Shown here piece after piece: positions 10,864-27,829 of a stretch of DNA of 30,899 nucleotides (within the stretch, counting starts at the first letter, position 1; the number at the start of each line of letters is the position of its first letter). Under the pieces are notes generated by a model. The model was not told the origin of the DNA and ran no database searches. It saw nothing but the letters and a program-made list of their open reading frames with translations. This DNA is from a virus, in IMG/VR virus record IMGVR_UViG_3300025949_000068, positions 1 through 30,899 of that record. The stretch is one strand, 5' to 3'. Made by a program: the position numbers and the translations under genes.

Positions 10864-10903
10864 TTGACCCAGTGGCGGCTGTTGGCATGGCGCCGCAGCA
10901 CTA
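10864..10903 (+). promoter_or_regulatory. Repeated late promoter-like element, copy 1 (small terminase)
   Basis: TTGACC (10864) is followed after 14 bases by GGCATGG (10884), then GC-rich sequence, with the terminase ATG 39 bases from the first T. It shares the TTGnCn-N14-GGCATGG layout with five other copies. If TTGACC acts as a -35 box, transcription would begin at or next to the ATG. Confidence 0.65.
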
Positions 10904-11406
10904 TGCCAACTCCAAAACCGGGCCGTCGGACGACGCCTGGTAGCAATTCATCGCAACAAGGCAACGCACGCGGGCCAAAGGCCATCGATTGGACGCCCGC
11001 ATATTTGGCGGCACTCGCGGAGTGTGGGCAGTGCACAAATGCAGCGGCAGCAGCCGGCGTGAATCACTCGACCGTTTGGCGCCGTCGAAAGGAGGACCCG
11101 GAGTTCGCCGACGCCTACGAGAGCGCTTTGGCGATCGCTGCTGATGCTTTGGAAGCCGAGGCCGTGCGGCGGGCACGCGAAGGACTGCGACAATACAAGT
11201 TTCATCCCAAAACGGGTGAGGCGCTGATCCATCCCGAGACAGGAGAGGCCTACTACGAGCACACCTACAGCGACACGCTGATGACGCTCCTTCTGAAGCG
11301 GTTCTTCCCGAAGGAATATCGCGAGCGCCAAGAGGTGGAACACACCGGCCGCGTGGCGATGACCCTCGATGAGTTCCGCAAACGAGTGGAGGAGGCGCAG
11401 GCGTGA
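10903..11406 (+). CDS. terS: Terminase small subunit
   Basis: Recognises phage DNA for packaging and works with the large terminase. The N-terminus is basic and flexible (PTPKPGRRTTPG), then comes a helix-turn-helix-like segment AALAECGQCTNAAAAAGVNH and STVWRRRKEDPEF, then a helical stretch ending in the common small-terminase tail YSDTLMTLLLKRFFPKEYR. Its length (167 aa) is usual. I choose ATG 10903 rather than an upstream in-frame ATG because the latter would lie within the promoter-like element. The next gene's GTG overlaps its stop. Confidence 0.85.
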   Translation: MPTPKPGRRTTPGSNSSQQGNARGPKAIDWTPAYLAALAECGQCTNAAAAAGVNHSTVWRRRKEDPEFADAYESALAIAADALEAEAVRRAREGLRQYKFHPKTGEALIHPETGEAYYEHTYSDTLMTLLLKRFFPKEYRERQEVEHTGRVAMTLDEFRKRVEEAQA

Positions 11407-11606
11407 TCTATCGCGAAGACGAGTGGAAGCATGCGGACGACAAGCCGCGCGGTGTCATCCTCGGTGCACCCCGCACCCGCGCCGAACAGCAGGCCTGGCT
11501 CGATGAGCAGTATCTCAGCGGCAAGCTCTCACTGAGGGATTGGCGCTTTCAATTCGACATCCTGAGCCTCGAAAACGCGGACGGGAGCTTTCCGCCAATC
11601 TCATGA
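11403..11606 (+). CDS. Small hypothetical protein (67 aa)
   Basis: Unrecognised. The GTG start at 11403 overlaps the small-terminase stop as GTGA. The sequence contains APRTRAEQQAWLDEQYLSG and LRDWRFQFDILS, probably helical, with no membrane segment. Its stop overlaps the next ATG. It could be a packaging accessory because it lies between terminase genes, but nothing in the sequence proves this. Confidence 0.6.
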   Translation: MIYREDEWKHADDKPRGVILGAPRTRAEQQAWLDEQYLSGKLSLRDWRFQFDILSLENADGSFPPIS

Positions 11607-13045
11607 CGACATCACACATCGACTTTTCATCCTGGGCGGCCATTGGAATGCTCACCGCAGCAGTGGCAGCTGGCTGGCGGCAATTCCTGAACATTTGGCG
11701 ATTCCTCCGCGGCCTGCTGATCGTCGACGTAAAGCTCGACGCCGAGGCGAATATAGCTGTCACCCACTATATCCGGACGACCTACCGAAACAGGTCCTAC
11801 CGCGGAAATCGTAAGATTTACAGCCGCACAAGCTATGTTCGTCCGCGGTCACGGTCCCAGAACGTGGCCTGCGAATATCTGAGCATGATGGTATTCTGGG
11901 TCGGTCGGGTACCCTGCCTGGTCTATTTCGGAGGTGATTCTCAACGGAATGAAAGCCAGCCTTCTGGCGGAACTTCCGGCGCTCTTCATCTAATGTTCTT
12001 TCGCGGGATGGTCGACATAGACGACTTTATCGCGAAGGCGATGGATGCCTACGCCGATGTGCGCAGCGGTGAGAGTGGAAATGCTCCTCAACGATTCCGC
12101 ATCGAATACATGGCTGGGTCGCGCGAGAGGGAGCCAGAAGAGTCTAGTAAAGCCGAGCCAAGAGAGGCACGTAATATCGGCTCTCCGCATCCAACCGACA
12201 GCCTCTCGGACCTTCAGTCCGCTTTCATTTATGGCTACGAGTGGAACGATCTTTTGCCACCCGTGGTAAAGACCGCCGTTGATGATCTTGCTCTTAGTGA
12301 TGATGCGCAGGATCTCGTGAATCACTGTGAGCGATGGCTTGGCGCTGAGGCGTGGTTTACCAGGCGCCGCGTGCCGTGGAAGTATGGATTCTGCGTCTAC
12401 GGCGAACCCGGATGCGGGAAGACGTCGCTGGTTCGCGCGATCGCTCAACGGCTCGACTTGCCAATCTACGTCTTCGACTTGGCGACGATGACGAATCGGG
12501 ATCTGAAAAACGCGTGGCGCGAGATGCTTTGCTGCGTTCCCTGTATGCCGCTCTTCGAGGACGTCGATGCGGTATTTAACGGCCGCGAGAATGTGACCGG
12601 CTACAAGAACGGTGTGACATTCGACTGCCTGCTGAATTGCATCGATGGTGTTCAGAAGTCGGATGGCATCCTGCTGGCGGTTACTACGAACCATATCGAC
12701 AAGATTGATCCGGCGCTGGGTGTTCCGCAGCGGGGTGATTCAACAATGAGCACGAGACCGGGCCGGGTTGATCGCGTGATTAAGGTCGGAAAACCTGATG
12801 CAGATGGGCGACGCAAGATTGCCCAGCGCATCCTTTCGGACTGGCCGGAATTGGTAGAGGAGTCTGTGCAGGATGGCGCTCAATTCCAGGCTCGATGTGT
12901 GATCATCGCGGAACGCATGTGGCGCGAGGGCAAAGTGTCTCTTGAAAACGTGCCTAAGATCGTTCGTTTCAATGCCCCCGTGTCGGAAAACTATGACAAG
13001 CCTGTCATGCTTGCGGGTACGGAATCCACCAGGGGTTTTCGATGA
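11603..13045 (+). CDS. BCS1-like AAA+ ATPase, membrane-anchored
   Basis: The 480-residue protein has the architecture of mitochondrial BCS1, which moves folded proteins across a membrane: an N-terminal hydrophobic segment (about 11-40), a BCS1-N-like middle domain (about 41-225) and a C-terminal AAA+ domain. ATPase motifs are Walker A GEPGCGKTS (267-275), Walker B PLFEDVD (316-322), LLNCIDGV (343-350), TTNHIDKIDPAL (361-372) and RPGRVD (385-390). A 12-residue insertion, GVPQRGDSTMST, separates DPAL from RPGRVD. It lies between small and large terminase with ATGA overlaps at both ends, unusual for this family. Homology to BCS1 is strong from motifs; the phage role is unknown. A longer in-frame start at 11540 overlaps the preceding gene and is rejected. 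Confidence 0.85.
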   Translation: MTTSHIDFSSWAAIGMLTAAVAAGWRQFLNIWRFLRGLLIVDVKLDAEANIAVTHYIRTTYRNRSYRGNRKIYSRTSYVRPRSRSQNVACEYLSMMVFWVGRVPCLVYFGGDSQRNESQPSGGTSGALHLMFFRGMVDIDDFIAKAMDAYADVRSGESGNAPQRFRIEYMAGSREREPEESSKAEPREARNIGSPHPTDSLSDLQSAFIYGYEWNDLLPPVVKTAVDDLALSDDAQDLVNHCERWLGAEAWFTRRRVPWKYGFCVYGEPGCGKTSLVRAIAQRLDLPIYVFDLATMTNRDLKNAWREMLCCVPCMPLFEDVDAVFNGRENVTGYKNGVTFDCLLNCIDGVQKSDGILLAVTTNHIDKIDPALGVPQRGDSTMSTRPGRVDRVIKVGKPDADGRRKIAQRILSDWPELVEESVQDGAQFQARCVIIAERMWREGKVSLENVPKIVRFNAPVSENYDKPVMLAGTESTRGFR

Positions 13046-13209
13046 CAACCGCCTGCGGAAAATTCAGATACGAGGACAAGAAGTCCGCTCTCACCGCGGC
13101 CAATTACCGACAGCATCGGCATCACCGGCGGCGGCGCGGCAAGGTGAAGCGTCTGAGGGCCTATGCGTGCCCAGACTGCGACGGCTGGCATCTCACATCA
13201 CGGCCATGA
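13042..13209 (+). CDS. Small zinc-ribbon-like phage protein (55 aa)
   Basis: ATG 13042 overlaps the BCS1-like stop as ATGA. The peptide has Cys5, a helical AALTAANYRQ-like stretch, a basic HRHHRRRRGKVKR block and a C-terminal YACPDCDGWHLT. This C-terminal CPxCxGWHLT pattern with a distant N-terminal Cys is a common small phage protein, probably binding zinc with the three cysteines and a histidine. A nucleic-acid-binding role is likely given the basic block, but its exact job is unknown. The next ORF starts within its stop codon. Confidence 0.7.
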   Translation: MTTACGKFRYEDKKSALTAANYRQHRHHRRRRGKVKRLRAYACPDCDGWHLTSRP

Positions 13210-13250
13210 GCACATCCCACATGAACGTTCTACTCAGCACAGAGATATGA
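13206..13250 (+). CDS. Possible 14-aa micro-ORF linking two genes
   Basis: ATG 13206 overlaps the previous stop as ATGA, and its own TGA overlaps the next gene's ATG as ATGA. The peptide is MSTSHMNVLLSTEI. Having the operon's overlap signature at both ends suggests it is translated, either to pass ribosomes on to the next gene or as a true micropeptide. No function can be given. Confidence 0.4.
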   Translation: MSTSHMNVLLSTEI

Positions 13251-13465
13251 CCGCGGCCCAATCTGCAGCGCTCGACAAAATCACTGAGATCATGCGTGAG
13301 CATTTCGACTCAGCTGTATTTGTCTTCGAGACGGATGCCAACGTTCCCGAAGATCCAAAGCTGTCGGATCTGAGTTATCGGATAAACGGCACGTTTTGTC
13401 AGTCACTTGGCCTGCTGAAGTATGCGGAGCATCGGATGTTGAGCGAATTTGAAAACCAACAGTAA
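13247..13465 (+). CDS. Small hypothetical protein (72 aa)
   Basis: Unrecognised. ATG 13247 overlaps the preceding stop as ATGA; an in-frame upstream start (13163) would lie in the zinc-ribbon gene. The sequence has an N-terminal helix (ALDKITEIMREHFDSAV), a strand-like FVFETDA and a second helix (GLLKYAEHRMLSEF). It is acidic and soluble. Its position before the large terminase suggests a late accessory protein only by context. Confidence 0.6.
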   Translation: MTAAQSAALDKITEIMREHFDSAVFVFETDANVPEDPKLSDLSYRINGTFCQSLGLLKYAEHRMLSEFENQQ

Positions 13466-13478
13466 GGAGCCGAACACC

Positions 13479-13649
13479 ATGGCCATCAAAATCAACCCAC
13501 GCGAAAAAGGCACGTTGCGTGCATTCCTCGGCGCTAAAGCCGGGAAGGATATTCCGACTGCAGCGCTCAACCGGGCGGCGAACAGCAGCGATCCAGCGAT
13601 CAAAAAGAAAGCGGTCTTCGCCAAGAACGCCCGCAAGTGGAAGCACTGA
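13479..13649 (+). CDS. Small basic conserved phage protein (56 aa)
   Basis: A clear ribosome site, AAGGAG, lies about 8 bases before ATG 13479, which decides this start over an earlier in-frame ATG at 13449. The peptide MAIKINPREKGTLRAFLGAK continues with a KAGKDIP segment, an alanine-rich stretch and a Lys-rich end (KKKAVFAKNARKWKH). Similar short basic KINP-starting proteins are common in phages, with unknown function. The large terminase begins 22 bases later. Confidence 0.65.
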   Translation: MAIKINPREKGTLRAFLGAKAGKDIPTAALNRAANSSDPAIKKKAVFAKNARKWKH

Positions 13650-13671
13650 CCCTTTCATTGATGTCGCCGCA

Positions 13672-15648
13672 ATGGTCCCGGTAACAGAACTGCTTCGCAT
13701 CCGCGAAGACCCGCGCCTTTGGTTCCAGGGCTTCGGTCGATATTGCGACGAGCAGACCCGCCAGCCGATCCGCGGCCGGGCGAACGTGCTGCAGCGCCGG
13801 ATGTTCGAGCATTACCGGCGGTGCCGGATGGCGAATAAGCCGTGCCGGATGGCAGTGCTAAAATACCGGCGGGCCGGAAGTTCGACGGGCAGTGAGGCGC
13901 TGATTTACACCCACGCTCACAACTACAACGCGCGCCTCGGTGTGGTCGGCACGGATTACAAGGCGTCGTCGAACATGCTCGAAATGCTTAAGTTCTTCGG
14001 CGAGCACGACGATTTCCCGGGATGGGGCGCAAGCGTGTCGGAGGGCGAAAAGAAGAAGGTGACCTGGCAGGAATGGTTCGGCGGCGATAACCTGGAGGGC
14101 ATCCCTTTTAATGAGCGGGTGGATAAACTGATCGCGACGAAGATCCATTGGTCGCACGGCTCGAGCGTCGAGCTCTATACCGCGAGCAATCCGGAATCCG
14201 CACGATCGGCCGGCCTGAACGGATATCATGCGACCGAATGCGGACGCTGGCAGACCGGCGGCCAGTTGGACGCGGCCGAGACATTGACCTCCATGCGCAA
14301 CACTCTGCCAAAGGCCGGGTTTCACGTGGCGATCGAGGAAAGTACAGCCAACGGTGCGCAGGGAGCGTTCTACGATACCTGTCGGCGGGCGCGCTGGCCC
14401 GAATATGCGCCATGGGTTGAGCAATTCAAATCCTCGTGGCCACTGGATGAGACCGAGTTCGGAAAAGACCTGCAGTTCGTGTTCATCTTCGCCGCGTGGT
14501 TCGAGGACGATCGACACGTTGAGCGGGACACCGCAGAGAGCGTGATGCTCGCAGACCCGACGCTGACACAGGAAGCCGCGGCGGAAATCGCCGATAGCCG
14601 CAATGCTGCCCGCGCAAAACGCGTGCAGGAGACACTGGATGCTGACCCGCGTTACTTTGGTGAAAAGGAGCTGATCGCACTCTACGGCCAGGACGGTCCG
14701 CGCGGGCAACGCCTGGGGGGCGAGGTTGACGCCACGGTATGGGAACAACTGGCATGGAGGCGCGGCATCATCGCCAACGTCTGCACGCGCCGCGGGCTCG
14801 ATGAATTTAAGCAGGAATATCCGGCAACCCCGCTGGAGGCTTTCCGCGCCTCAGGCTCGCCCGTTTTCGACGTCGAGGGGTTAATCGCGCTCGATGAGAT
14901 GCTGCGCGCGGCGCCAAAGCCGGAGTATGGCAACGTCGACCCGCAGCGAGACGGATCGGTCGCATGGCGGAGAACCACCCAGCAGAACGGAATGATCCTA
15001 CGCTGGGAGCAACCGATTGAAGGATGCCGGTATCTCGTCTCGGTGGACACGAAAGAGAACTCCGAGATCATCAAGGGGACGGGTGAACTGGATCGCAACT
15101 CAGTGCAGGTGATTCGCGACGCCTACCGGGACATCCATGACGTGTGGCATGGCGTGAAGGTGGTCGCTCGCGTGGTCGCCCCGAACCAGTGGGACGATGC
15201 GCCGCTCGCCCGACTGATCGCACCGCTGGCCAAGTATTACGGCGACTGCATGATCGTCGTGGAGAATAACCGCGGCCTCGCGCTGATCACACGGCTTCGT
15301 GACGACCACAATTGCCGCATCTACTGCTCCGAGCACTGGGACGCTGTGAAACAGAAGGCGCTGAGCACCTACGGTTGGAGAACCGATGAGGGTTCCCGCC
15401 GGCAGATGGTAAGCACCGGCCAGGAATACATTCGTGAGCAGAAAATAGAGGTCCTGGACCCGCACATAATTGCCGAACTGAAGACCTTCATTTTCGATAC
15501 TAAGGGCAAGGCTACCGCAGCCGCCGGCGCGCACGACGATGATGTGATGGCGCTCCTCATGGGGCTATGCTGCCTCCATGCGGCCACGAATTATCCGAAG
15601 CGCGCCGCGGTGAATTCCCGGCCGCCCGACGAGCACGCTTGGAAATAG
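13672..15648 (+). CDS. terL: Terminase large subunit
   Basis: The packaging motor with ATPase and nuclease activities. The ATPase part shows a Walker A-like KYRRAGSSTGSEA (about 64-76), where the usual lysine-containing loop is altered, as in many large terminases, and a Walker B VAIEEST (about 220-226). The nuclease part shows YLVSVDTKE (about 452-460), MIVVENNRG (about 526-534) and HDDDVMALL (about 620-628), giving the acidic metal-binding residues. The protein of 658 aa is within the family's range. ATG 13672 is the first start leaving no overlap with the upstream gene, but no clear ribosome site is seen, so the start is moderately sure. Confidence 0.9.
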   Translation: MVPVTELLRIREDPRLWFQGFGRYCDEQTRQPIRGRANVLQRRMFEHYRRCRMANKPCRMAVLKYRRAGSSTGSEALIYTHAHNYNARLGVVGTDYKASSNMLEMLKFFGEHDDFPGWGASVSEGEKKKVTWQEWFGGDNLEGIPFNERVDKLIATKIHWSHGSSVELYTASNPESARSAGLNGYHATECGRWQTGGQLDAAETLTSMRNTLPKAGFHVAIEESTANGAQGAFYDTCRRARWPEYAPWVEQFKSSWPLDETEFGKDLQFVFIFAAWFEDDRHVERDTAESVMLADPTLTQEAAAEIADSRNAARAKRVQETLDADPRYFGEKELIALYGQDGPRGQRLGGEVDATVWEQLAWRRGIIANVCTRRGLDEFKQEYPATPLEAFRASGSPVFDVEGLIALDEMLRAAPKPEYGNVDPQRDGSVAWRRTTQQNGMILRWEQPIEGCRYLVSVDTKENSEIIKGTGELDRNSVQVIRDAYRDIHDVWHGVKVVARVVAPNQWDDAPLARLIAPLAKYYGDCMIVVENNRGLALITRLRDDHNCRIYCSEHWDAVKQKALSTYGWRTDEGSRRQMVSTGQEYIREQKIEVLDPHIIAELKTFIFDTKGKATAAAGAHDDDVMALLMGLCCLHAATNYPKRAAVNSRPPDEHAWK

Positions 15649-15650
15649 GA

Positions 15651-15686
15651 TTGACACACTGACTCCCTCCGGCATGGGCAACCGCA
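15651..15686 (+). promoter_or_regulatory. Repeated late promoter-like element, copy 2
   Basis: TTGACA (15651), a perfect consensus -35 hexamer, is followed after 14 bases by GGCATGG (15671), then the ATG at 15686, 35 bases from the first T. The element begins two bases after the terminase stop. No TATAAT-like box is present at the usual spacing. Confidence 0.65.
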
Positions 15687-17179
15687 TGGCCACTCCTTTT
15701 CGCCGCCGTGGGTATCCGTATGTGAACGACAATCCGAATCCGCCGCCGCGCTTTGGGACTGCGCGCCGGGATGCGTACGGCAATCTACTCCCGGGCGAAT
15801 ACAACGGGTTCGGAAGGCCTGTCGGGCAGGAATCGGGCGGCGAAGATATCCAGAACCGTCCGATGGGTTTCACTCCTATGGCGAAATGGCAGGAGCTGTT
15901 TCCGCCCGTCGCGCTCGGGAGTGGCGGCACTACAGCGGCTCCCAGCGTTCAAGCGAGCAGTATGCCGAAGGCTTTTCGAACGGCATCGCCGGGGACCGGT
16001 GCAGCCCCTGACGTGATCAGTCGCATCGCGGGGAACGCCGTGTCCGCCGCGCAGGCCGCAACCGCCGCGCGTTCCGCCGGCGGCGCTCCACAAGGCCCGA
16101 CCCCATCCGGCGCCACGGTTGATGCGGCGCCGAGCGGGCCGCAGATTGGCGATACTCGGCGCACGCCATTCGGCGGCACTGAGACGCTGATGGATTCGCG
16201 TACCGGCCCAAGGTGGGTAGGATCGACGTCGAGCGCGCCGGCGGCGACCAACTTCATGCCTGGTGATGCAGGAACCAACTCGCTGGCCGATGTGGTAACC
16301 CATTCGGGCAAAGCCGCGCCAGCGCCGAAGATTCGACCGGATGGAACGAAGATCGCGCCGAACATCGCGGACAATGCTGCATACTACCGGCCCGGCGGTG
16401 CATTTGGTTCCGTCGTATCCGTCGACAAGCCGGGCGGCTATGGTTCTTCGCGCGTGCTTGGGCAGGATGAACCTGCGGTTGCCCCTACCCAGGATCAAGC
16501 GACGGCCATCGCGAAGAAGTATGGTGATCCCACTGGGGGGACCAACGCTTCGCTCAAGGACTTGGCGGCTTCCGGATTTTACCCGACAAAGGCGAAAACA
16601 AGTGGAGTCGGAATGGGCGACCTGAAGACAGCGGAAAGAACCCCGCTCGACACCTTCAATGAGTCGATTCCGGGCATCGGACCGGCTGCAGGGGCGGGTT
16701 CGGTTCCACCCACTACTTCTGCTGCACCCGTGAGCGTGACTCAGCCTACCGCATCCACTCCGTCGCGACCCGCGCGATTGAGTTGGGAGACGGATGCTGA
16801 TGTCGCAGCCAGGCAGGCCGCGAGTCGTCCGATAGTTTATTCCTCCGATCCCGCTCATGGAACCACCGGTCTCATGGATTCTCTAGGCAAAGGCAATCTA
16901 TCTGCTGCGGGAGTGTGGACTGGGAAGGATATCGGCAACGCATGGGGCGACATCACGCGCGCCGCCGGGAGCGCCATGGGAAGCGCGTCCGATGCGATGC
17001 GGGGCACCGCTGGCGAAGGCAGTCCCATCGACAACCTTCTGAAGAAGGGGCGGACGGCATTCGGAAGTGCAGTCACGCCGCTGAAGGGCGCGGTGGCCAC
17101 GATGCAGCAGGTCAGTGATGATCAGCCAAAGCGGCAGGATCTGCTGCAGAGCGCCGGTTATAGTGGCAGCGACGAATAG
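15686..17179 (+). CDS. Large Pro/Ala/Gly-rich protein, unknown, probably virion
   Basis: A 497-residue protein I cannot assign. It is rich in Pro, Ala, Gly, Ser and Thr, with few predicted helices, consistent with a mostly disordered structural or internal virion protein. The N-terminus is basic (ATPFRRRGYPYVNDN). A few more ordered segments occur, such as GFTPMAKWQELFPPVALG (about 65-85) and a C-terminal helix-rich region near LMDSLGKGNLSAAGVW and ATMQQVSDDQPKR. The ATG at 15686 is preferred over 15674, which lies inside the promoter-like element's GGCATGG. Position between terminase and portal fits a portal- or ejection-associated protein, by inference. Confidence 0.65.
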   Translation: MATPFRRRGYPYVNDNPNPPPRFGTARRDAYGNLLPGEYNGFGRPVGQESGGEDIQNRPMGFTPMAKWQELFPPVALGSGGTTAAPSVQASSMPKAFRTASPGTGAAPDVISRIAGNAVSAAQAATAARSAGGAPQGPTPSGATVDAAPSGPQIGDTRRTPFGGTETLMDSRTGPRWVGSTSSAPAATNFMPGDAGTNSLADVVTHSGKAAPAPKIRPDGTKIAPNIADNAAYYRPGGAFGSVVSVDKPGGYGSSRVLGQDEPAVAPTQDQATAIAKKYGDPTGGTNASLKDLAASGFYPTKAKTSGVGMGDLKTAERTPLDTFNESIPGIGPAAGAGSVPPTTSAAPVSVTQPTASTPSRPARLSWETDADVAARQAASRPIVYSSDPAHGTTGLMDSLGKGNLSAAGVWTGKDIGNAWGDITRAAGSAMGSASDAMRGTAGEGSPIDNLLKKGRTAFGSAVTPLKGAVATMQQVSDDQPKRQDLLQSAGYSGSDE

Positions 17180-17181
17180 GC

Positions 17182-17219
17182 TTGCCATAGTGGGGCTAGT
17201 CGGCATGGCGCGCCGGCGA
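17182..17219 (+). promoter_or_regulatory. Repeated late promoter-like element, copy 3 (portal)
   Basis: TTGCCA (17182), 14 bases, then GGCATGGCGCGC (17202), with the portal ATG at 17219, 37 bases from the first T. GCCAT and ATGGC within the element are also inverted copies, shared with copies 4 and 5. Confidence 0.65.
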
Positions 17220-19660
17220 TGAAAACCGCGTTGCGCACGTCACTGACAGATGACCAATACGACCGACTGAAGCGGGCGGCGCTTACGCGTTACCAGCAAA
17301 TATCAGAGGAGGGTGAGCGATCGAAGATGGAGGATAATCTTCGGCGTTACGAACTGCGCGCGGAGGGCGATTACAGCGATCGCCAGTTGCCGGGAATCAT
17401 GAACCGGCCGCTGCAGAAGATCTTCGGCCTGAAGAACGAGACCCTCGGAATTGTGCGGAGCGTGAAGCGGTTCCTGCTCGCCCGGGTCTGCAAGGATCTG
17501 TTCGGCGGTGAACCATTCTTCTACGTCCGGCCAGAGGGGAAGGTGGACAAGGAACTCGCGGAAGCGATGCAGAAGCACGCCGGCTGGAAGTTGCGACTCG
17601 CTCAATACAAAGCAAAGATCAAACGGGCGATCGATACCTTGCTCGACGTCGGATACGTGCCGATCAAGACGACCTGGGATGTGCAGGAGGATGTTAGTGA
17701 AAGCCTGGAGATGATCTTGGTCCACAAGAGTGACGGGGTGCCGGTGGTGACGGATGACGGCGATTACATCTACGAGGATGACGAGACGACAGAGGTTCAG
17801 TCGCCGGTGGCGAATCAAGGCCCCGGCGAGGATTCCCAATCGGAAGCCCCTGAGCAGAACGAGCAGCAGGTGCAAGCCGCCGGTGGTGAGCAGGCTGAAA
17901 TGGAATCGGTTGACCCTGAAGATTTGGACCAAGGGCAGGACCAATCAAATGCCCAGGCACCGCAGCCGCCCATGCTGGCGTTTGTGAAGGCTCCAGAGGT
18001 CGTGATGGACGCCGAGAAATACACGTGGCGTGAGCATCTCGTGGAGCAGCGCGTGCGGCTATACAACGGCCTGCGCATTGACCCATGCGAGCGGAAGGAC
18101 GTCTTCTGGCCGATGAACGTGCCGGATATTGAAGAGGCGGACATGACGGCGCATCGGTTCGATTGCAAGTTATCGGAGCTCCGTGCGAAATACGCGCCCA
18201 AGAGTTTCGAAGACCAGGACGAGGACGAAGACGGCTCGGAGACGGAGAGCGACGGCGACGAAGATGATCAGATTGATTCGGAGGTGGCCGACATCCTTGA
18301 CGGACTGAAACACGAATCGCAGTCCCCAAAGAGCGAGGCGGACAAGCCCTATAAGAACGAGGCCGAGGTGAGCGGGCAGGAAGAAGACCCAACCATTCAA
18401 GTTGCGGAATGTTCGTTCGATTTCGATTGCTTCGAAGACGGCCGGCCGCGCCGCCTGCATCTCGTGCTCCTTCCGCAGCAGCAGGAATGCATCTACGCAG
18501 AATACCGTGCCGCCCTCGCGCCGCGGGCGGCGAAGAACATCCACATGCTGGCGATCAACCGCCGAAAGAACCGGGCATACGGCCGGGGACTCTACGAGGT
18601 CTATGAGAACCTGGCGGATGCGGCCGACCAGTTGCTCAACGCCATCCTTTACCGGAACCAGTATGTCTCGGACCCGACGAAGATCTGGAACCCCCAGAAC
18701 ACCGTCGAGGGCAAGGCGAATCCGGACCTGAAGTTCGAGCCCGGCTCGACTTACTCGACGTCCGGCCCGCAGATTGACCCAAAGAACATTCTGACGGCCA
18801 TCGAACTGCCGGACCTTGATGAGCGGACGTGGAAGCTGATGGAACTGTTCATGCAGCTGATCCAGTTGGACAGTGGCGTGACCAACGCGAACCAGGGCGA
18901 TGTTTCCAACCTGCCGAGCAACTCGACGGCCACGGGCATCAACTCCATGCTGGAGAGCAGCTCTGTTCTCCATCAATACGTCCTCGAGGAGATTCGTGAT
19001 TGCCTTACTCCTCAGCTGGCGTTCGCGGTCGGGTTGATCTACCTGCGGCAGGATCAGGACGAGACCTACGAGTATCTCACCAATGATGACGATCCCGCGG
19101 CGCAGCAGGTCATGCTATTGAAGGATGCGCGGAAGTTGCGGCATCTTCCGATGAACGTCGACATCCTGCTCACCCGGACGAAACGCCAGGAATGGCGCGA
19201 GGCCAGCACGGCCGCGATCCCGATTGGCGTGCAATATGGGCAGTTGGCTCCGCCGGACCAGGCGCGGATGCGCGAGGCTTTCGTGCAGCTATTCCGCGCA
19301 CTGGACTTTGAGAACCCAGAGGATTTCTTTCCGAAGCCGAATCTCGATGCGGCGCCGCCCTCGCCTCCTCCCCCGAAGGCAACCGAGGCGATTACGATGA
19401 AGGGCGAGGACCTGTCGCCTACGCAGAGGGATGCACTCGCACAACAGTTCGGTTTGCCGGCGACCACGCCCGGGGAACTACAGGGCGCGCACCAAGCTAT
19501 CAGCCCGCCAGCATCAGGAGCGCCCGTGCAGCCGGCGCCGTCCATCGCTGCAGCGTCGAGCGGTCCCCTTCCGTCAAACGTAATTGACGACAACGACACC
19601 AAGCTCCCGGACAACCGCAGCTTTGACGAGGACGCGCCAACTGCGGAGACCAACCTGTGA
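17219..19660 (+). CDS. Portal protein
   Basis: Forms the ring at the head vertex through which DNA enters and leaves. At 813 aa it is large, as in podovirus-like portals. Portal-like features are the N-terminal helical DQYDRLKRAALTRYQQI, a core segment with SVKRFLLARVCKDLFG, and a C-terminal core with DQLLNAILYRNQYVSD, ELFMQLIQLDSGVTN and SNSTATGINSMLES. Two very acidic, Glu/Asp/Gln-rich inserts (about 177-247 and 329-390) interrupt the core. The C-terminal 100 residues are Pro/Ala-rich. The ATG lies next to the promoter-like element without a ribosome site. The next gene's GTG overlaps its stop. Confidence 0.85.
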   Translation: MKTALRTSLTDDQYDRLKRAALTRYQQISEEGERSKMEDNLRRYELRAEGDYSDRQLPGIMNRPLQKIFGLKNETLGIVRSVKRFLLARVCKDLFGGEPFFYVRPEGKVDKELAEAMQKHAGWKLRLAQYKAKIKRAIDTLLDVGYVPIKTTWDVQEDVSESLEMILVHKSDGVPVVTDDGDYIYEDDETTEVQSPVANQGPGEDSQSEAPEQNEQQVQAAGGEQAEMESVDPEDLDQGQDQSNAQAPQPPMLAFVKAPEVVMDAEKYTWREHLVEQRVRLYNGLRIDPCERKDVFWPMNVPDIEEADMTAHRFDCKLSELRAKYAPKSFEDQDEDEDGSETESDGDEDDQIDSEVADILDGLKHESQSPKSEADKPYKNEAEVSGQEEDPTIQVAECSFDFDCFEDGRPRRLHLVLLPQQQECIYAEYRAALAPRAAKNIHMLAINRRKNRAYGRGLYEVYENLADAADQLLNAILYRNQYVSDPTKIWNPQNTVEGKANPDLKFEPGSTYSTSGPQIDPKNILTAIELPDLDERTWKLMELFMQLIQLDSGVTNANQGDVSNLPSNSTATGINSMLESSSVLHQYVLEEIRDCLTPQLAFAVGLIYLRQDQDETYEYLTNDDDPAAQQVMLLKDARKLRHLPMNVDILLTRTKRQEWREASTAAIPIGVQYGQLAPPDQARMREAFVQLFRALDFENPEDFFPKPNLDAAPPSPPPPKATEAITMKGEDLSPTQRDALAQQFGLPATTPGELQGAHQAISPPASGAPVQPAPSIAAASSGPLPSNVIDDNDTKLPDNRSFDEDAPTAETNL

Positions 19661-19962
19661 CAGCCCAAGATTACCAGCGAAAGGTAGCTCTTCTTCGGGC
19701 CTACGAGGCGATGCTGCGAAACCCTGCCTATCTCGAGTTTCATGCGAAGATCGAGGAGGAGTTCGCCAACTGCATTGCCGGCCTCCGAAACCGGAAAATA
19801 CCGGTCTCCGAACGGCAAGAGTTTCAGGAGGGTGCGGACCTTGCCGAGCGCCTCAAGACCTTCGCGGCCGATAGGATCGTCGCCTTGAAAAAAGAGACGG
19901 CGCTCTCGCAAGTTGAACTCGACACGCTGAAGGACGGGTTTGAACCGGAGAACGAAGGATGA
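19657..19962 (+). CDS. Small helical protein after portal (101 aa)
   Basis: Unrecognised. GTG 19657 overlaps the portal stop as GTGA. The product is almost wholly helical and charged (YQRKVALLRAYEAMLRNPAY, EEEFANCIAGLRNRK, QEGADLAERLKTFAADRIV), suggesting a coiled-coil protein that may accompany the portal or neck. It ends before the fourth promoter-like element, so it probably closes the portal transcription unit. Confidence 0.65.
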   Translation: MTAQDYQRKVALLRAYEAMLRNPAYLEFHAKIEEEFANCIAGLRNRKIPVSERQEFQEGADLAERLKTFAADRIVALKKETALSQVELDTLKDGFEPENEG

Positions 19963-19972
19963 GCTTTTTCGC

Positions 19973-20022
19973 TTGCCATACCGCGGACTGTCGGCATGGC
20001 CGCCAGTAGACCTGAATACCCA
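19973..20022 (+). promoter_or_regulatory. Repeated late promoter-like element, copy 4
   Basis: TTTTTCGC then TTGCCATA (TTGCCA at 19973), 14 bases, then GGCATGG (19993). The ATG at 20022 is 49 bases from the first T, so a short leader of about a dozen bases would exist. The upstream T-run is shared with copies 5 and 6. Confidence 0.65.
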
Positions 20023-20342
20023 TGAGCCTATCCATCGCACTTCCCAACGGGTTCACGAATGTGACGACAGCCGGCACGGCAGTTCCGCTGTTCAGCGGGA
20101 GTGATCCGGCTCGATACCTCCTCGGGCGCGCCACATTGCTGCTCACCGCGCGGAAGAACAAGACCACCGCGAACACTGGCGATGTCTATGTGGGGAACCG
20201 TGAGGTGCAAAGCCAAGTGCTATCACCTGGTCAGTCGCTGTCGTTCGAGGTTCATCCCGGAGAAAAACTCGACCTTTCGCAAATCTATATCGATGCCGCC
20301 ACCAACGGCGACGGCGTTAGCTGGCTGATCAAGAGCGTATGA
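20022..20342 (+). CDS. Small beta-rich virion protein
   Basis: A 106-residue protein, apparently mostly beta-strands (ALPNGFTNVTTAGTAVPLF, ATLLLTARKNK, GDVYVGNREVQSQVLSPGQ, LSFEVHPGEKLDLSQIYI). This pattern of VYVGN and a GE-KLDLS-IYIDA turn is common in small phage structural proteins at the head-fibre interface. It begins a transcription unit after promoter-like copy 4 and overlaps the fibre-like gene by ATGA. It may be a decoration or fibre-adaptor protein; the precise role is not seen. Confidence 0.65.
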   Translation: MSLSIALPNGFTNVTTAGTAVPLFSGSDPARYLLGRATLLLTARKNKTTANTGDVYVGNREVQSQVLSPGQSLSFEVHPGEKLDLSQIYIDAATNGDGVSWLIKSV

Positions 20343-20980
20343 GTTCACTTTCCCTCTCTCCAGCGCCATCTTCGGGCGGCAGCGCAGCGACCAAGGACAC
20401 CGGCGTTGCATGGTTCACATCCGACGGAAATACATCCACTGGCGACGGCACGCCGGGAAATCCATACGGTCCGGGAAATGGGCAGAAGGCCTACGACGCG
20501 GGTTTCAGGTCATTTTACGTAGGTCCTGACTGCGATTTCGGTAATATTCTTTTGGCTGACGCCCCTGCAAACTTCTCCATCCGTGGGAATGGGAATACAT
20601 CAGGAACTATTAGCGGAAACCTTGTGCTGAACGCATGGGGGCAAGTGTATTATATTTATTTGGACAACTGCATCATTGGCAACATCGCCGGAAATGCGTC
20701 ATTTGGCGATTCGCCAGTTTTAGTAAACTTGTTTATCAACCCTACGGCATCTGTTGGATATCTTAGCCTGCAAGGAGCAAATGGAGTGGATGATGGAAAT
20801 GGCACACCAGCAGATGGTTCTCCGGGCGGTAGTGCGAATATCTATGGCGGGGGGAGTATCCAATCCTACAGCGTAACCGGTGGCGCCAATGTCAATGGCG
20901 GAACGGACGGAACGAATGGTTCTACATCGGTCAAAGGAGCACTGATCGGCGGCACGTTTTTAGATAATTCCTATCCATGA
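20339..20980 (+). CDS. Gly/Asn/Ser-rich fibre-like protein, possible receptor binding
   Basis: A 213-residue protein rich in Gly, Asn, Ser and Thr with alternating small and hydrophobic residues, which suggests a parallel beta-helix or fibre tip. Segments such as GNILLADAPANFSIRGNGNT and GNLVLNAWGQVYYIYLDNC look like helical rungs, and the C-terminal third (GVDDGNGTPADGSPGGSANI) is very Gly-rich. The DNA from about 20520 to 20980 is visibly richer in A and T than its neighbours, a sign that it may have been acquired recently. ATGA overlap with the upstream gene supports the start. A receptor-binding role is inference. Confidence 0.6.
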   Translation: MSSLSLSPAPSSGGSAATKDTGVAWFTSDGNTSTGDGTPGNPYGPGNGQKAYDAGFRSFYVGPDCDFGNILLADAPANFSIRGNGNTSGTISGNLVLNAWGQVYYIYLDNCIIGNIAGNASFGDSPVLVNLFINPTASVGYLSLQGANGVDDGNGTPADGSPGGSANIYGGGSIQSYSVTGGANVNGGTDGTNGSTSVKGALIGGTFLDNSYP

Positions 20981-20983
20981 TCT

Positions 20984-21355
20984 ATGAACTACTCTGAAGC
21001 TAAATCTAACTTGGCCACCATCCAAGCCGCTATGGCGGCGGCGCAGCAAACTGTGTCCGACGCCCAAGCAACTATCGCCGCCCTTGAGCCCGTGGCCGGA
21101 TCGGCGCAAGCCGCACTCGACCAATTTCACACGTTCCAGTGCAATAGTAACATCGGAGCGGGGGACAGGACTGTTTCCCAGGTGCAATTTCCCGACGACG
21201 CCAGCGTTAACGACACGATCGCCACCGTTGTGCGAACGGCAATGCCCGACCCCGTTCCGTGCATGGTTTCTAACTATGATGGTGTCGATGGGACGTGGAG
21301 CGATCCGGAACCCGGAACCATCGGATGGAATGATATGGGTCCGGTGACGCAGTAA
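20984..21355 (+). CDS. Hypothetical protein with N-terminal helix (123 aa)
   Basis: Unrecognised. The first 45 residues form an alanine-rich, coiled-coil-like helix (YSEAKSNLATIQAAMAAAQQ onwards), followed by a more beta-like domain (TVSQVQFPDDASVNDTIATV, ending in DGTWSDPEPGTIGWND). This helix-then-globular layout is seen in fibre-associated or trimerising phage proteins. It starts three bases after the fibre-like gene's stop and precedes the lysis region. Confidence 0.6.
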   Translation: MNYSEAKSNLATIQAAMAAAQQTVSDAQATIAALEPVAGSAQAALDQFHTFQCNSNIGAGDRTVSQVQFPDDASVNDTIATVVRTAMPDPVPCMVSNYDGVDGTWSDPEPGTIGWNDMGPVTQ

Positions 21356-21367
21356 CCTCTGATAGCG

Positions 21368-21982
21368 ATGGCCGCCCTCCCCGCCGCAAAGGCATTCTTT
21401 CAAAGTTGGGAAGGATTATGCACTGCAATTGCGGGGGCGATCGCTTCGACATTGGGCGTGTTTCATCTCCTTCCTCGCATCTACAAGGTGCTGAGGAACT
21501 TTTATGATGGGGCACTCTTTACGATCGAGATTCGCGACAAGCTGGCGGAGATAAAATCCGAGATGGTGCAGCGGCTTGATAGTCTCGATGACGGGCAGCT
21601 CAACATGATCGTGGTTCGTCGACAGATGCTCGATAACGATTATGAGGTTGCCTATTTCGAAACCAGCCCAACAGGCAAGACTCTGTGGGTAAGCAAGACG
21701 TGGTCGCAGTGGACTGGTCTAAGTGAGAACGAGGCCCGCGGCAATGGATGGGAGAATGGCATCGCGCCCGAGGATTTGTCCCGCGTTCTCCACAACTGGC
21801 AACTGGCCATCGATCATCAGCGCGATTACGTCGATCGATACTCCTACGTCGACCGCGCAGGCTGGCGGCGATCGGTGGAGACCGTAGCGCGGCCCATCCG
21901 GAGGAAGGATGGCACGATCCTCAATTTCTTCGGCAGCGCCCGAATTGTTTCCGACACCGCAGCCAAAGCTCACACCGCATGA
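21368..21982 (+). CDS. Membrane-anchored PAS-domain protein in lysis region
   Basis: A 204-residue protein with an N-terminal hydrophobic segment (about 17-36, CTAIAGAIASTLGVFHLLP), a charged linker helix (about 52-80) and a C-terminal PAS fold (about 90-197). PAS_3-type hallmarks are LWVSKTWSQWTGLSENEARG, then NGWENGIAPEDLSRVLHNW, RYSYVDRAGWRRSV, and ARPIRRKDGTILNFFGSARI. PAS domains sense small molecules, redox state or light, or mediate protein contacts. No histidine kinase or other output domain is fused. It is followed with an ATGA overlap by a lipoprotein and other lysis genes, so a holin-like or lysis-timing role is possible but unproved. Confidence 0.75.
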   Translation: MAALPAAKAFFQSWEGLCTAIAGAIASTLGVFHLLPRIYKVLRNFYDGALFTIEIRDKLAEIKSEMVQRLDSLDDGQLNMIVVRRQMLDNDYEVAYFETSPTGKTLWVSKTWSQWTGLSENEARGNGWENGIAPEDLSRVLHNWQLAIDHQRDYVDRYSYVDRAGWRRSVETVARPIRRKDGTILNFFGSARIVSDTAAKAHTA

Positions 21983-22248
21983 AATACCCCATCCTCATCC
22001 ATTCCCTGGCCTTCATCGCCGCGGTGGCCCTCCTTTCGTTCGCGCTCGTCGGGTGCAAGACAACGGAACCGACCGACGCGCCCGTCACTGCTCGCGCGCG
22101 AAGCCTGGCCGGCGATGCGTCTGCGGCAACGTCTGAAGCAACGAAAGCTTCGCAGCGGTCCAGCACGCACATCCACGAGTTCCGCTCTGACGCTGAGCGG
22201 ATCGATTACAAGGCTTCCCGTGCCCTTGAGATCCTCAACCACCCATGA
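21979..22248 (+). CDS. Lipoprotein, o-spanin-like
   Basis: An 89-residue protein with an N-terminal hydrophobic signal (about 5-22) and a lipobox LVGC (23-26), so Cys26 should be lipidated and the mature part periplasmic. The remaining 63 residues are polar and Ala/Ser/Glu-rich. The ATG at 21979 overlaps the PAS gene's stop as ATGA; a longer in-frame start (21748) is out of register with that gene's function. Size, lipobox and place before a coiled-coil membrane protein and an endolysin suit an outer-membrane spanin subunit for disrupting the outer membrane. Confidence 0.7.
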   Translation: MKYPILIHSLAFIAAVALLSFALVGCKTTEPTDAPVTARARSLAGDASAATSEATKASQRSSTHIHEFRSDAERIDYKASRALEILNHP

Positions 22249-22862
22249 AAACATTCCTCCTCGCCTTCCTCTGCCTGACGCTTCCCCTCTCGGCCGCTAC
22301 TCCGCGCCATGCAGCGTCGGTTGCCCCCACTCCCGCCGCTGCCGAGGCCGCTGCGGAGCCGCTGCCGGAATCAATTCCGATGGCACGTCAGCGCACCGTG
22401 CAGGAAGATCTGGAGTTGCGGGATTGGATCGTGGGAATTCAAACGACGGCGCAGGACGCCGAGAAGCGAGCCGATGATGCCGAGAAGGAAGCAAAGGCCT
22501 CCCGTGACCAGACAGCGATCGCAGGCGTGAAACTTGAGGGATTACAAACCAGCCTTGATGCCGTGCAGAAGGCATTCGATGCCGAGCGTACGGCAAAGGA
22601 AGCCGCGCAGTCCGAGGCCGCGAAACAAAAGGCGATGGCGGACGAAGAACACAAGGCGCGCGTGGCTGCTGATACCCATCTGAGCAAGATCAAAACTTAC
22701 CTCGGCTTTGCCCTCGGGGCCCTGCTCGCTCTGGTAGCCGAATATGTTCTCGCCCAAATCACCCTACCGCCACCGCTGAGCGGGTATCTGTTTTTCATTC
22801 GCATCGGCGCTCCGATCGCGGCCTTTGGGATCGGATGGATGATCGTAGCACGCTTTGTCTAA
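22245..22862 (+). CDS. Signal-peptide coiled-coil protein with C-terminal TM hairpin
   Basis: A 205-residue protein with a likely cleaved signal peptide (1-18, ending LSA-A), an Ala/Pro-rich linker (about 19-45), a long coiled coil (about 55-150, with repeated A, E, K and Q) and two membrane helices (about 151-171 and 181-204). The coiled coil would lie in the periplasm and the hairpin in the inner membrane. An ordinary inner-membrane spanin has one N-terminal anchor, so this has the opposite topology. It overlaps the lipoprotein gene by ATGA, suggesting the two form a spanin-like pair, by inference. Confidence 0.65.
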   Translation: MKTFLLAFLCLTLPLSAATPRHAASVAPTPAAAEAAAEPLPESIPMARQRTVQEDLELRDWIVGIQTTAQDAEKRADDAEKEAKASRDQTAIAGVKLEGLQTSLDAVQKAFDAERTAKEAAQSEAAKQKAMADEEHKARVAADTHLSKIKTYLGFALGALLALVAEYVLAQITLPPPLSGYLFFIRIGAPIAAFGIGWMIVARFV

Positions 22863-22873
22863 CCCCTACGGCC

Positions 22874-22957
22874 ATGTTCCTTTTTCTCCTCCTCCTGCAA
22901 GACGGCAGCGTGATTGCACCGTTGTTTGATCCATCCCTTTTTCAGATCATCGTATGA
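22874..22957 (+). CDS. Possible 27-aa hydrophobic micro-ORF
   Basis: ATG 22874 opens a 27-codon frame whose TGA overlaps the next gene's ATG (22954) as ATGA. The first eight residues, MFLFLLLL, are strongly hydrophobic, followed by a polar middle and FQIIV at the end. It fills the gap between the coiled-coil protein and the holin-like gene, and could be a small membrane peptide or simply couple translation. Confidence 0.4.
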   Translation: MFLFLLLLQDGSVIAPLFDPSLFQIIV

Positions 22958-23295
22958 GCCTGCGACAACGAAGCACGTGGCATAAACTTTTCGTCTGCCT
23001 GCTCGGCATCGCGATAGTCGTTGGAATTTGGCAGTGGGCGACCTGGCATCTTTATTCGTTGCCGCCTGAGTCTATCAGCGCCTTCACCAGTATCACGACG
23101 AGCTGCCTCTACGTCATCAGCTCCATCGTCATGTTCTTCATCACCGGTAAGGTTCTCTACGACTGGAAGAACACGACCGAGAGCGCGGTTTCTCTGGTCT
23201 CGCAGCATATCGATGAGCAGCGCAAGGAAGAGATTGACGAAACGATCCGCGAATTCAACACCCCGGAATTGCAGGACCGCTACTCGGACCGATGA
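22954..23295 (+). CDS. Holin-like protein
   Basis: A 113-residue protein with a short basic N-terminus, two membrane helices (about 11-29 and 45-66) and a charged C-terminal tail (about 70-113), which is the class II holin layout of forming lesions in the inner membrane at lysis. Its ATG overlaps the preceding micro-ORF and its stop overlaps the endolysin ATG, putting it directly before the enzyme it would release. Holin families vary greatly in sequence, so the call rests on topology and position. Confidence 0.7.
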   Translation: MSLRQRSTWHKLFVCLLGIAIVVGIWQWATWHLYSLPPESISAFTSITTSCLYVISSIVMFFITGKVLYDWKNTTESAVSLVSQHIDEQRKEEIDETIREFNTPELQDRYSDR

Positions 23296-23882
23296 AAAGC
23301 TCACAGAACGCCATCGAGTTGATCCACCGTTTCGAAGGGTGGGACATTGCCTCGCAATGGCCTGGAGAAAAGTCAGGCATCACTATCCCCTACGGCTACG
23401 ACTTGGGCTACGAGCAGAATTTCGAGAGCGATTGGAAACCCTTTCTCCAGGCGGCGACAATCGAACGGCTGAAGCCGGCGATCGGAATGAGGGGGCAGTC
23501 GGCGCGACACCTGGCGCCGTCGATGCGCGGCATCCAAATCCCAAAGGAAGGGGCGGAGTCGGTTTTCGAGAATCGAGTCCTTCCGCGAACTGAGGCGGCG
23601 GTCGAGAAGGTATTTCCCGGCAGCGGCACACTCCCGGGGGATGCCTTCGGAGCGCTGGTCTCGTTGATCTTCAACCGGGGCGAACTGATCGATCACTCGG
23701 ACCGGCGCCGCGAGATGCTGCAGCTTCGGCAGTTGTTCCTGAAGGGGCAACCGTACGACCTGCGCAAGATCGCAGATTTGGTGGAGTCGCAAAAACGCCT
23801 GTGGCCACACCGCGGGGATTCTGACGGAGACCTTTGGACCCGGCGCATCGAGGAGGCGAAACTCATCCGGTCAGCGGCATAA
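23292..23882 (+). CDS. Endolysin, lysozyme/pesticin-like muramidase
   Basis: Predicted to cleave peptidoglycan at lysis. The N-terminal active-site region ELIHRFEGWDIA (9-20) gives Glu14/15 as the likely catalytic acid, followed by TIPYGYDLGY (31-40), typical of phage GH24 and pesticin-like lysozymes. A later GALVSLIFNRG (120-130) is the family's conserved helix. No signal peptide or membrane segment is present, so export depends on the holin-like protein. At 196 aa the length is normal. ATGA overlap with the holin-like gene supports the start. Confidence 0.85.
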   Translation: MKSSQNAIELIHRFEGWDIASQWPGEKSGITIPYGYDLGYEQNFESDWKPFLQAATIERLKPAIGMRGQSARHLAPSMRGIQIPKEGAESVFENRVLPRTEAAVEKVFPGSGTLPGDAFGALVSLIFNRGELIDHSDRRREMLQLRQLFLKGQPYDLRKIADLVESQKRLWPHRGDSDGDLWTRRIEEAKLIRSAA

Positions 23883-23891
23883 ACTTTTCGC

Positions 23892-23962
23892 TTGCCATAG
23901 GCGAATCGCACGGCATGGCGCGCAGTAGTCACCTGCCCAACCATCAACCAACCTAACATCCT
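23892..23962 (+). promoter_or_regulatory. Repeated late promoter-like element, copy 5, with leader
   Basis: CTTTTCGC then TTGCCATA (TTGCCA at 23892), 14 bases, then GGCATGGCGCGC (23912). The gene start at 23963 is 71 bases from the first T, so this copy would give a leader of about 35 bases, in contrast to copies whose ATG is at the predicted transcription start. Confidence 0.65.
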
Positions 23963-24664
23963 ATGAGCACTCTTTCCGCCAAACTGGCCGCCGCTGCGAA
24001 AAGCTATCTTCTGCGCTATGCGCTGAAACATTTCGTCGGCGAGCCCGAGATTTCCACCCTCGCCCGCGGCCTGGTCGACAAGAATGGGAATGTCGTGATG
24101 GAGGCGGACGGCGCGACGCCGGCGGTAACTCTGGGAGGAAGTCAGACCTTGACGAACAAGTTGCTGACGGCCGCGAGCAACTTTTTTGCGGATGGGTCAA
24201 CGCCCACGAAGAAGATCGGCTTCGACGCTTCCGGCGCGAGCAGCTCGACCACGACCACCATCGCCGCGGCGCAAACCGCCAACCGGACACTGACGCTGCC
24301 CGACGCGACGGACACGCTCGTGGGCAAGGCGACAACCGATACGCTCACGAACAAGACGTGGGGCGGCGCCTACATCACTTCGATTCAGGCTTTGAGCGGT
24401 GCGGGTGCGGTGGATATCGTTACTGAAATTACGCGCCTGACTACCACGGGCGCTGCGCAGGCCTTGACCTTGGCCAACGGAACGGCTGGGCAGCGCAAGA
24501 CGATCATTCACGAGGTCGACGGCGGCAGCGCGGTGCTGACCCCGACCACGAAGACCGGGTTCACGACCATCACTTTCACGAACGTCGGAGACTCGGCAAC
24601 GCTGGTTTATTTGACTACTCGCGGCTGGATGATCCAGGCGCTCAACGGCGCGGTCGCCGCGTAA
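23963..24664 (+). CDS. Fibre/virion-like protein with LTNK repeats
   Basis: A 233-residue Thr/Ala/Gly-rich protein. The motif TLTNK appears twice (about residues 53 and 127), each within a TLTNKxx(T/W) context common in phage tail and head fibres. The N-terminus (LSAKLAAAAKSYLLRYALKH) is helical and may anchor it. The C-terminal third (ITRLTTTGAAQALTLANGTA to TFTNVGDSATLVYLTT) resembles a beta-sandwich capping domain. It has its own promoter-like element and is followed by the tRNA-like sequences. Confidence 0.65.
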   Translation: MSTLSAKLAAAAKSYLLRYALKHFVGEPEISTLARGLVDKNGNVVMEADGATPAVTLGGSQTLTNKLLTAASNFFADGSTPTKKIGFDASGASSSTTTTIAAAQTANRTLTLPDATDTLVGKATTDTLTNKTWGGAYITSIQALSGAGAVDIVTEITRLTTTGAAQALTLANGTAGQRKTIIHEVDGGSAVLTPTTKTGFTTITFTNVGDSATLVYLTTRGWMIQALNGAVAA

Positions 24665-24670
24665 TCGTTT

Positions 24671-24744
24671 TCGTCGGGGAGAATGGGATTCCAGTCAGTT
24701 TCATAAGCTGACCTTCGTTGGTTCGACTCCAACCCTAGCCACCA
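24671..24744 (+). tRNA. tRNA-Met(CAT)-like sequence with a degenerate 5' acceptor
   Basis: An anticodon arm TCAGT-TTCATAA-GCTGA (24695-24711) with CAT at 24702-24704, a normal 5-base variable region, a perfect T arm GTTGG-TTCGACT-CCAAC (24717-24733) and CCTAGCC-ACCA at the 3' end (24734-24744) are all tRNA-like. A D-arm-like GGA...TCC pair is visible. However, the matching 5' acceptor half, expected to be GGCTAGG, is absent; the bases there (TTTTCGT) do not pair. It may be a decayed tRNA, a tRNA-like element or a tRNA with an unusual 5' end. The start coordinate is approximate. Confidence 0.5.
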
Positions 24745-24751
24745 CCTCAAC

Positions 24752-24826
24752 GCGTCGGTAGCTCAACGGCAGAGCAGCAATCTTCCAAATTGCTCGTTGC
24801 GAGTTCGAATCTCGCTCGGCGCTCCA
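24752..24826 (+). tRNA. tRNA-Gly (anticodon TCC)
   Basis: All arms fold: acceptor GCGTCGG with TCGGCGC (wobble pairs included), D arm GCTC-AACGGCA-GAGC, anticodon stem GCAAT/ATTGC around the loop CTTCCAA with TCC as anticodon, T arm GCGAG-TTCGAAT-CTCGC, and an encoded TCCA end. It would read GGA (and by wobble GGG) glycine codons. It lies seven bases after the Met-like sequence. Encoded CCA and perfect stems suggest it is functional. Confidence 0.93.
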
Positions 24827-24839
24827 ACTTCGAACCCAC

Positions 24840-24953
24840 ATGAAACGCGCTATCATCGTGGCCATCCGCCAGGTTGTAGCGCGTCTTTCTTTGAGTAAGT
24901 CGAGCCTCCGCAAGAAGCTTCGAAAAGCCTGGCGCAAGAGCCTTCGAAAATAG
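24840..24953 (+). CDS. Tiny basic ORF (37 aa)
   Basis: ATG 24840 starts a 37-codon frame ending in TAG. The peptide begins with a hydrophobic-basic stretch (MKRAIIVAIRQVVARLSL) and ends very basic (KKLRKAWRKSLRK), 13 of the 37 residues being Lys or Arg in total. It would form an amphipathic cationic helix. It begins 13 bases after the tRNA and ends 13 bases before promoter-like copy 6. A nucleic-acid- or membrane-binding role is possible; it may also be chance. Confidence 0.45.
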   Translation: MKRAIIVAIRQVVARLSLSKSSLRKKLRKAWRKSLRK

Positions 24954-24966
24954 ATTCCGATTTTTC

Positions 24967-25004
24967 TTGTCATAGCGAGGTCTGTTGGCAGCGCACGCTG
25001 ACGA
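24967..25004 (+). promoter_or_regulatory. Repeated late promoter-like element, copy 6 (scaffold)
   Basis: TTTTTC then TTGTCATA (TTGTCA at 24967), 14 bases, then GGCAGCG (24987), the most divergent right half, with the scaffold-like gene's ATG at 25004, 37 bases from the first T. It probably drives the scaffold and major capsid genes, which end at a terminator. Confidence 0.6.
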
Positions 25005-27751: not shown

Positions 27752-27776
27752 GCGACCTGCGTCATCAAACTCATCA

Positions 27777-27809: not shown

Positions 27810-27829
27810 GGGGTGAAAAGACTTCCACT

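Follow-up and report, generated by a model that had tools for sequence, protein, structure and literature searches.

Late promoters of phage 7-11 (phiEco32-like) have the form GTAAtg-(16)-aCTA, occur in eight copies before late genes and are read by the phage sigma factor gp47 (PMC8948821). Middle promoters of phage T4, which depend on sigma appropriation by MotA/AsiA, retain an excellent -10 box and have the -35 box replaced (PMC6755090). In leaderless genes of Actinobacteria and Deinococcus-Thermus, a TANNNT box precedes the start codon by about 12 bp (PMC3160421). Here we present a six-copy, promoter-like element from IMG/VR virus record IMGVR_UViG_3300025949_000068, an incomplete record of 30,899 bases and 59% GC that was analyzed over its whole length (hereafter the window) and for which no near relatives were found in the phage collection. 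It is probable, judging from the sequence and its comparison with relatives, that this phage uses the six copies as its late promoters, in which the -35 box is kept and a phage-specific block stands in for the -10 box, and that the mRNAs made from them are mostly leaderless.

Like the late promoters of 7-11, the element consists of two short blocks at fixed spacing, is present in several copies and precedes late genes only, and in both cases promoter locations are kept between relatives while the sequences differ (PMC8948821). It differs in its sequences, in a first block that is a standard -35 word, in a GC-rich second block and in starts predicted to fall on the ATG; moreover, 7-11 has gp47, whereas no sigma gene was found in the incomplete record of the window phage. 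With T4 middle promoters it shares the retention of one host box and the replacement of the other by a phage-specific box (PMC6755090), but here the -35 box is kept and the -10 box is missing, and the combination of a strong -10 box with a MotA box at -30 was not found. The element appears to work like the sigma-dependent late promoters of 7-11 and, in a sense, to mirror the T4 middle promoters, a likeness that does not by itself make it a member of either group. As in the leaderless genes of Actinobacteria and Deinococcus-Thermus, the promoter-like sequence stands directly before the start codon and Shine-Dalgarno sites are lacking, but the -10 box that defines those genes is absent (PMC3160421).

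A preliminary description had reported the six copies at the start positions given in Table 1, where all were found, and had described the two blocks as separated by exactly 14 bases, which is the case in six of six copies. The conserved stretches are bases 1-8 (TTGnCATA) and bases 21-28 (GGCATGGC). The second block had been called GGCA(T/G)GG-like; GGCA is indeed common to all six copies, but copy 6 does not read GGCATGG. The first block agrees with a -35 hexamer, reading TTGnCA in five copies and TTGACC in the remaining one. TTGnC-N15-GGCA occurs six times on the plus strand and twice on the minus strand of the window; dinucleotide shuffles gave an expectation of 1.6 occurrences for the two strands together, and none of 100 shuffles reached eight. 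When TTGnCATA-N12-GGCATGGC was searched with up to three mismatches, the six copies were the only matches in the window (0.85 expected). With a 32-base matrix built from all six, the sites scored 28.6-40.2 bits and the next best window position 11.3; under leave-one-out conditions five of the six copies exceeded every other position on both strands, the exception being copy 2, which was equaled by five other positions. Motif discovery over the intergenic gaps of the window yielded TTG-N17-GGCA as the commonest spaced word, its count of six being reached in one of 30 Markov controls. The 14 nucleotides (nt) upstream of TTG are on average 61% A+T over the six copies, in the manner of upstream promoter elements, the window as a whole having 41% (P = 5e-5).

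All six copies are intergenic, lie on the sense strand and precede packaging or structural genes (one 501-amino acid (aa) gene and one 106-aa gene included). None was found in the early operon of the window, as had been described, yet the element is also absent before the capsid gene (26276) and before 27830, 22245 and 22954, i.e., some late gaps are without a copy. The start codon is ATG in every case and follows the first T by 35-39 bases in four copies, in agreement with the preliminary description, and by longer distances in copies 4 and 5; the distance for copy 2 requires the second of two ATG codons, the first falling within the element. If the first T is taken as -36, four transcripts would begin no more than 3 nt from the ATG; a start codon at +1 is a prediction from this distance.

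The description of the first block as TTGACA/TTGCCA-like without a TATAAT-like -10 box was likewise borne out. Neither TATAAT nor TAnnnT was found in the six copies, and TAnnnT is absent from all 19 promoters of the window and its relatives, including the position about 12 bp before the start codon; the best TATAAT match over these sites was no better than in shuffled sequence, with one or two of six bases matching at a spacing of 16-18 bp in the six copies. In a consensus scan the late gaps were free of canonical sigma-70 promoters, and the three detected in the window are all intragenic (5.3 expected). No Shine-Dalgarno match is present in the six start regions behind the element, compared with five or six of ten early starts. 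In the window as a whole, Shine-Dalgarno sites precede most early genes and almost none of the late genes from 17219 on, with or without the element.

Relatives were gathered by terminase, lysin, capsid and portal searches and form a family of uncultured phages, the portal and capsid proteins of which are about 22-36% identical to those of the window. The complete window element was found in none of them. Nevertheless, in 10 of 18 sequence clusters the scaffold gene, which immediately precedes the capsid gene, has TTGnC at 35-38 bases from its ATG, with 0.29 clusters expected, a probability that is too strong because the clusters share ancestry; at distances of 28-34 or 39-44 bases TTGnC was found in none of the 18. 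With the window excluded, TTGnC stands at that distance in 9/16 scaffold genes and 9/224 other genes (Fisher P = 7e-8). Among the clusters without TTGnC, a related hexamer is placed 36 bases before the scaffold ATG in g6 (TTTACA), L222 (TTGCTA), L215 (TTGCAA) and L163 (TTGCGC), and TTGATT 34 bases before it in L167. We consider it the telling point that the distance is constant although the sequence has changed. The same distance before the scaffold gene of distant relatives is the strongest support for the earlier proposal of a late regulon with leaderless or nearly leaderless mRNAs, which also agrees with position, orientation, spacing, the A/T-rich tract, the ATG starts and the lack of Shine-Dalgarno sites; by comparison, the reading as late, mostly leaderless promoters appears well supported.

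Some relatives have repeated versions of their own. L163, whose capsid protein is the closest to that of the window among full-length comparisons, carries TTGCGCGT-N8-GCGCRTCAGG before the portal gene (ATG at +40) and the scaffold gene (+36), each following a T run. In G003 (L176-L178) four copies of GTCA-N8-TTGACTTT (4646, 20667, 45249 on the minus strand, and 46008) precede the portal, scaffold, 334-aa and giant genes, with the ATG 34-36 bases after TTG, and L191 repeats TTGnCnG-N4-ACAACAAC before portal and scaffold. A de novo word search of G001 returned no repeated element. The -35-like word thus recurs at a similar spacing from the ATG, the second motif belonging to each phage. In several relatives an A-rich motif, ACGAAACRTAAAG / CAGAACATCAAC, is found close before start codons without Shine-Dalgarno sites and is possibly a translation signal.

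According to the explanation we favor, RNA polymerase, with a host or phage sigma factor, would be held upstream by TTGnCA and the A/T-rich tract, TTGnCA being read by a domain like sigma region 4. The GC-rich block GGCATGGCGCGC, 14 bases further on, would occupy the place of the -10 box and would be read only by a phage-specific factor; the fixed spacing in all six copies makes it probable that a single rigid complex recognizes both blocks. The predicted transcription start, some 36 bases downstream of the first T, would coincide with the ATG or be no more than 3 nt away from it in four operons; in the other two it would precede the ATG by 13 and 35 nt. Translation of these mRNAs would proceed without a Shine-Dalgarno site. 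The factor replacing -10 recognition may be a phage sigma factor, and one candidate of this kind is the module carried by giant polyvalent proteins in some relatives.

A giant gene of 4,000-5,400 codons, usually located between terminase and portal, is common to the relatives with long contigs. Its products resemble the polyvalent proteins of phages and conjugative elements in sharing the kinds of domains described for these (PMC5512222), including helicases, a methylase, ART-PolyVal, Kinase-PolyVal and ddrB-ParB; unlike those described, some add a module of sigma-70 region 2 and region 4, and the main text of that paper does not contain the word sigma (PMC5512222). Region 2 (PF04542) scored above the Pfam cut-off in five records (G010, G011, G017, G016 and G022; E 2e-10 to 2e-13), and region 4 comes after region 2, which is the order in the sigma-70 family. 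These carriers represent three clusters, G010, G011 and G017 being one clade; the giant proteins holding the module measure 3,800-5,000 aa, and module identity to G010 is 27-33% for G016 and G022. Sequence matches of the module in PDB were sigma factors, save one weak match. A two-domain fold model reached a predicted local distance difference test (pLDDT) score of 72-83 over both domains, which is moderate, and its top fold matches were sigma factors or transcription-complex models.

No sigma match was obtained with the giant proteins of G003, G012, G013 and G014, and in the window a 501-aa gene takes the place of the giant gene, so the module is a candidate in only some members of the family. 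The product of the 501-aa gene had no match in family searches, and its single-sequence fold was poor. Sigma-like matches in two small open reading frames (G013, G012) resemble Cro/C1-type helix-turn-helix proteins on reading and were discarded. The single-subunit phage RNA polymerase family of the T7/N4 type (PF00940) had no match in 13 records, although no control genome matched either. The earlier suggestion of a phage-modified or alternative polymerase is supported only indirectly, by the missing -10 box and the sigma modules of some relatives; a sigma factor gene, for which the description had advised looking elsewhere in the genome, was not found within the incomplete window. That the module reads these promoters is a candidate explanation, and the wider proposal of an uncultured tailed-phage family with -10-less late promoters that give leaderless virion mRNAs and are recognized by a phage sigma domain within a giant polyvalent protein, is speculative and unlikely.

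Several observations weigh against promoters with a phage-specific second block. A GC-rich start region would be hard to melt, and the window, as far as it is recorded, has no match to sigma regions and no other recognized regulator. G003, G013 and G014 gave no sigma match in their giant proteins and yet place TTGAC 35-36 bases ahead of the scaffold ATG, and the sigma module alone therefore cannot be the general explanation. The feature is absent at the scaffold gene of G001, L202 and L203, and the clusters are not fully independent, since L204, L212, L213 and L221 share more than TTGnC. Searches of public collections with the whole element gave chance-level matches only, mostly in coding sequence, and no other phage with the full element.

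Alternatively, the copies could be ordinary host sigma-70 promoters with a good -35 box, an upstream A/T tract and a very poor -10 box, the GC-rich block being incidental and no phage factor involved. The TTGACA-like hexamer and the A/T tract are standard host signals, the hexamer is retained over phages of 46-66% GC, as expected of a host signal, and fair -10-like words are present in L191 (CATACT) and before a side gene of L221 (TATGGT). This explanation is nevertheless rather unlikely in view of the lack of TAnnnT at 19 of 19 sites and of a second block that in the window is as conserved as the first and fixed in spacing, unlike an incidental block. A known host promoter class was rejected, as whole-element matches in public collections are at chance level or scattered (in bacteria 18, with about 8 expected at even base use).

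The copies could instead be operators of a phage regulator, overlapping the true promoter or lying between it and the gene, with TTGnC a part of the operator. The G003 copies are palindromic around TTGAC, in the form GTCA-N8-TTGAC, and three window copies show a weak half-symmetry, GCCAT/ATGGC, 21 bp apart. Copies 1, 2 and 6 depart from this symmetry, the late gaps contain no other promoter that was found, and the distance to the ATG held across relatives is not required of an operator, which makes this reading improbable. Even less can be said for an element acting at the RNA level (a translation enhancer, hairpin or processing site) in the 5' leader of a transcript from a promoter farther upstream: every copy is indeed on the sense strand directly 5' of a start codon, but the ATG follows at anything between 35 and 71 bases while the inner spacing is fixed, the A/T tract and -35-like wording suit recognition of DNA better, and a hairpin pairing both halves was rejected because the pairing is lost where bases differ between copies. 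Chance or leftover repeats without function, e.g., a small mobile repeat, would fit six copies in one incomplete genome; given the copy statistics, the placement in gaps only and the layout in relatives, we regard this as practically negligible.

Bacterial leaderless genes have been recognized by a -10 box beside the start codon. If the six copies are late promoters as proposed, this phage family seems to set start codons at the expected start of -35-only promoters, each branch adding its own second motif, a layout that makes the question of the factor replacing -10 recognition testable. Sigma modules in giant polyvalent proteins would add the redirection of transcription to the known activities of that protein class.

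Table 1. Positions of the element, of neighboring genes and of related features (window coordinates unless a record is named; distances to ATG counted from the first T)
Feature	Position	Strand	Remarks
Element, copy 1	10864..10895	+	Before small terminase gene; ATG 10903, +39
Element, copy 2	15651..15682	+	Weakest; before 501-aa gene; ATG 15686 (+35) or ATG 15674 within element
Element, copy 3	17182..17213	+	Best match; before portal gene; ATG 17219, +37
Upstream tract of copy 3	17168..17181	+	Least A/T-rich of six, 43%
Element, copy 4	19973..20004	+	Before 106-aa gene; ATG +49; predicted leader about 13 nt
Element, copy 5	23892..23923	+	Before gene 23963-24664; ATG +71; predicted leader about 35 nt
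Element, copy 6	24967..24998	+	Before scaffold gene; ATG 25004, +37; second block GGCAGCG
Small terminase gene	ATG 10903	+	phrog_4044, E 1e-28
Large terminase gene	13519..15648	+	No element in front; own Shine-Dalgarno-like site
501-aa gene	15674-17179	+	Between terminase and portal, the position of the giant polyvalent gene in relatives
Portal gene	17219..19660	+	phrog_1216, E 1e-11; homologues include G001, L163, G003
106-aa gene	20022-20342	+	Downstream of copy 4
Gene with weak virion/tail-fibre match	23963-24664	+	Downstream of copy 5
Scaffold gene	25004..26221	+	Homology to relatives; TTGnC-to-ATG distance kept across relatives
Major capsid gene	26276..27751	+	phrog_334, E 2e-11; relatives found; no element in front
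Sigma-70 module, G010	C1:55100-55900 (L237:15100-15900)		
Sigma-70 module, G016	C1:34084-34629 (L251)		
Sigma-70 module, G022	C1:9089-9649 (L252, L256)		
A-rich motif, L204	8910, 12869		
A-rich motif, L209	8146, 8899, 12917		
A-rich motif, L212	8691, 8908, 13094, 14181		

The genes of the window run rightward, beginning with early genes for DNA methyltransferases, a DUF5131 protein, a helicase and helicase loaders, which are followed by small terminase, large terminase, portal, lysis-type genes, scaffold and capsid. The start given for the portal gene is supported by the alignment with the portal protein of L163, in which both proteins match from residue 1 on. A Verrucomicrobial host may be suspected. 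The early gene at 6253 was ruled out as a regulator and belongs to a repair/nuclease-like family. Bcep22-like podoviruses (PEp14, Parlo, POI1126) have a distantly related capsid protein (about 25% identity) and the order portal-scaffold-capsid, but unlike in the window their scaffold gene directly follows the portal gene; in these cultured phages no TTGnC was found at -35 before scaffold or capsid genes. Genes for tRNA-Met and tRNA-Gly are located at 24672-24826, immediately 5' of copy 6. Downstream of the capsid gene, at 27775-27815, a terminator-like GC-rich stem is followed by TTTTGGGG, and a similar GC-rich stem is present at the corresponding site after the capsid gene of G001.

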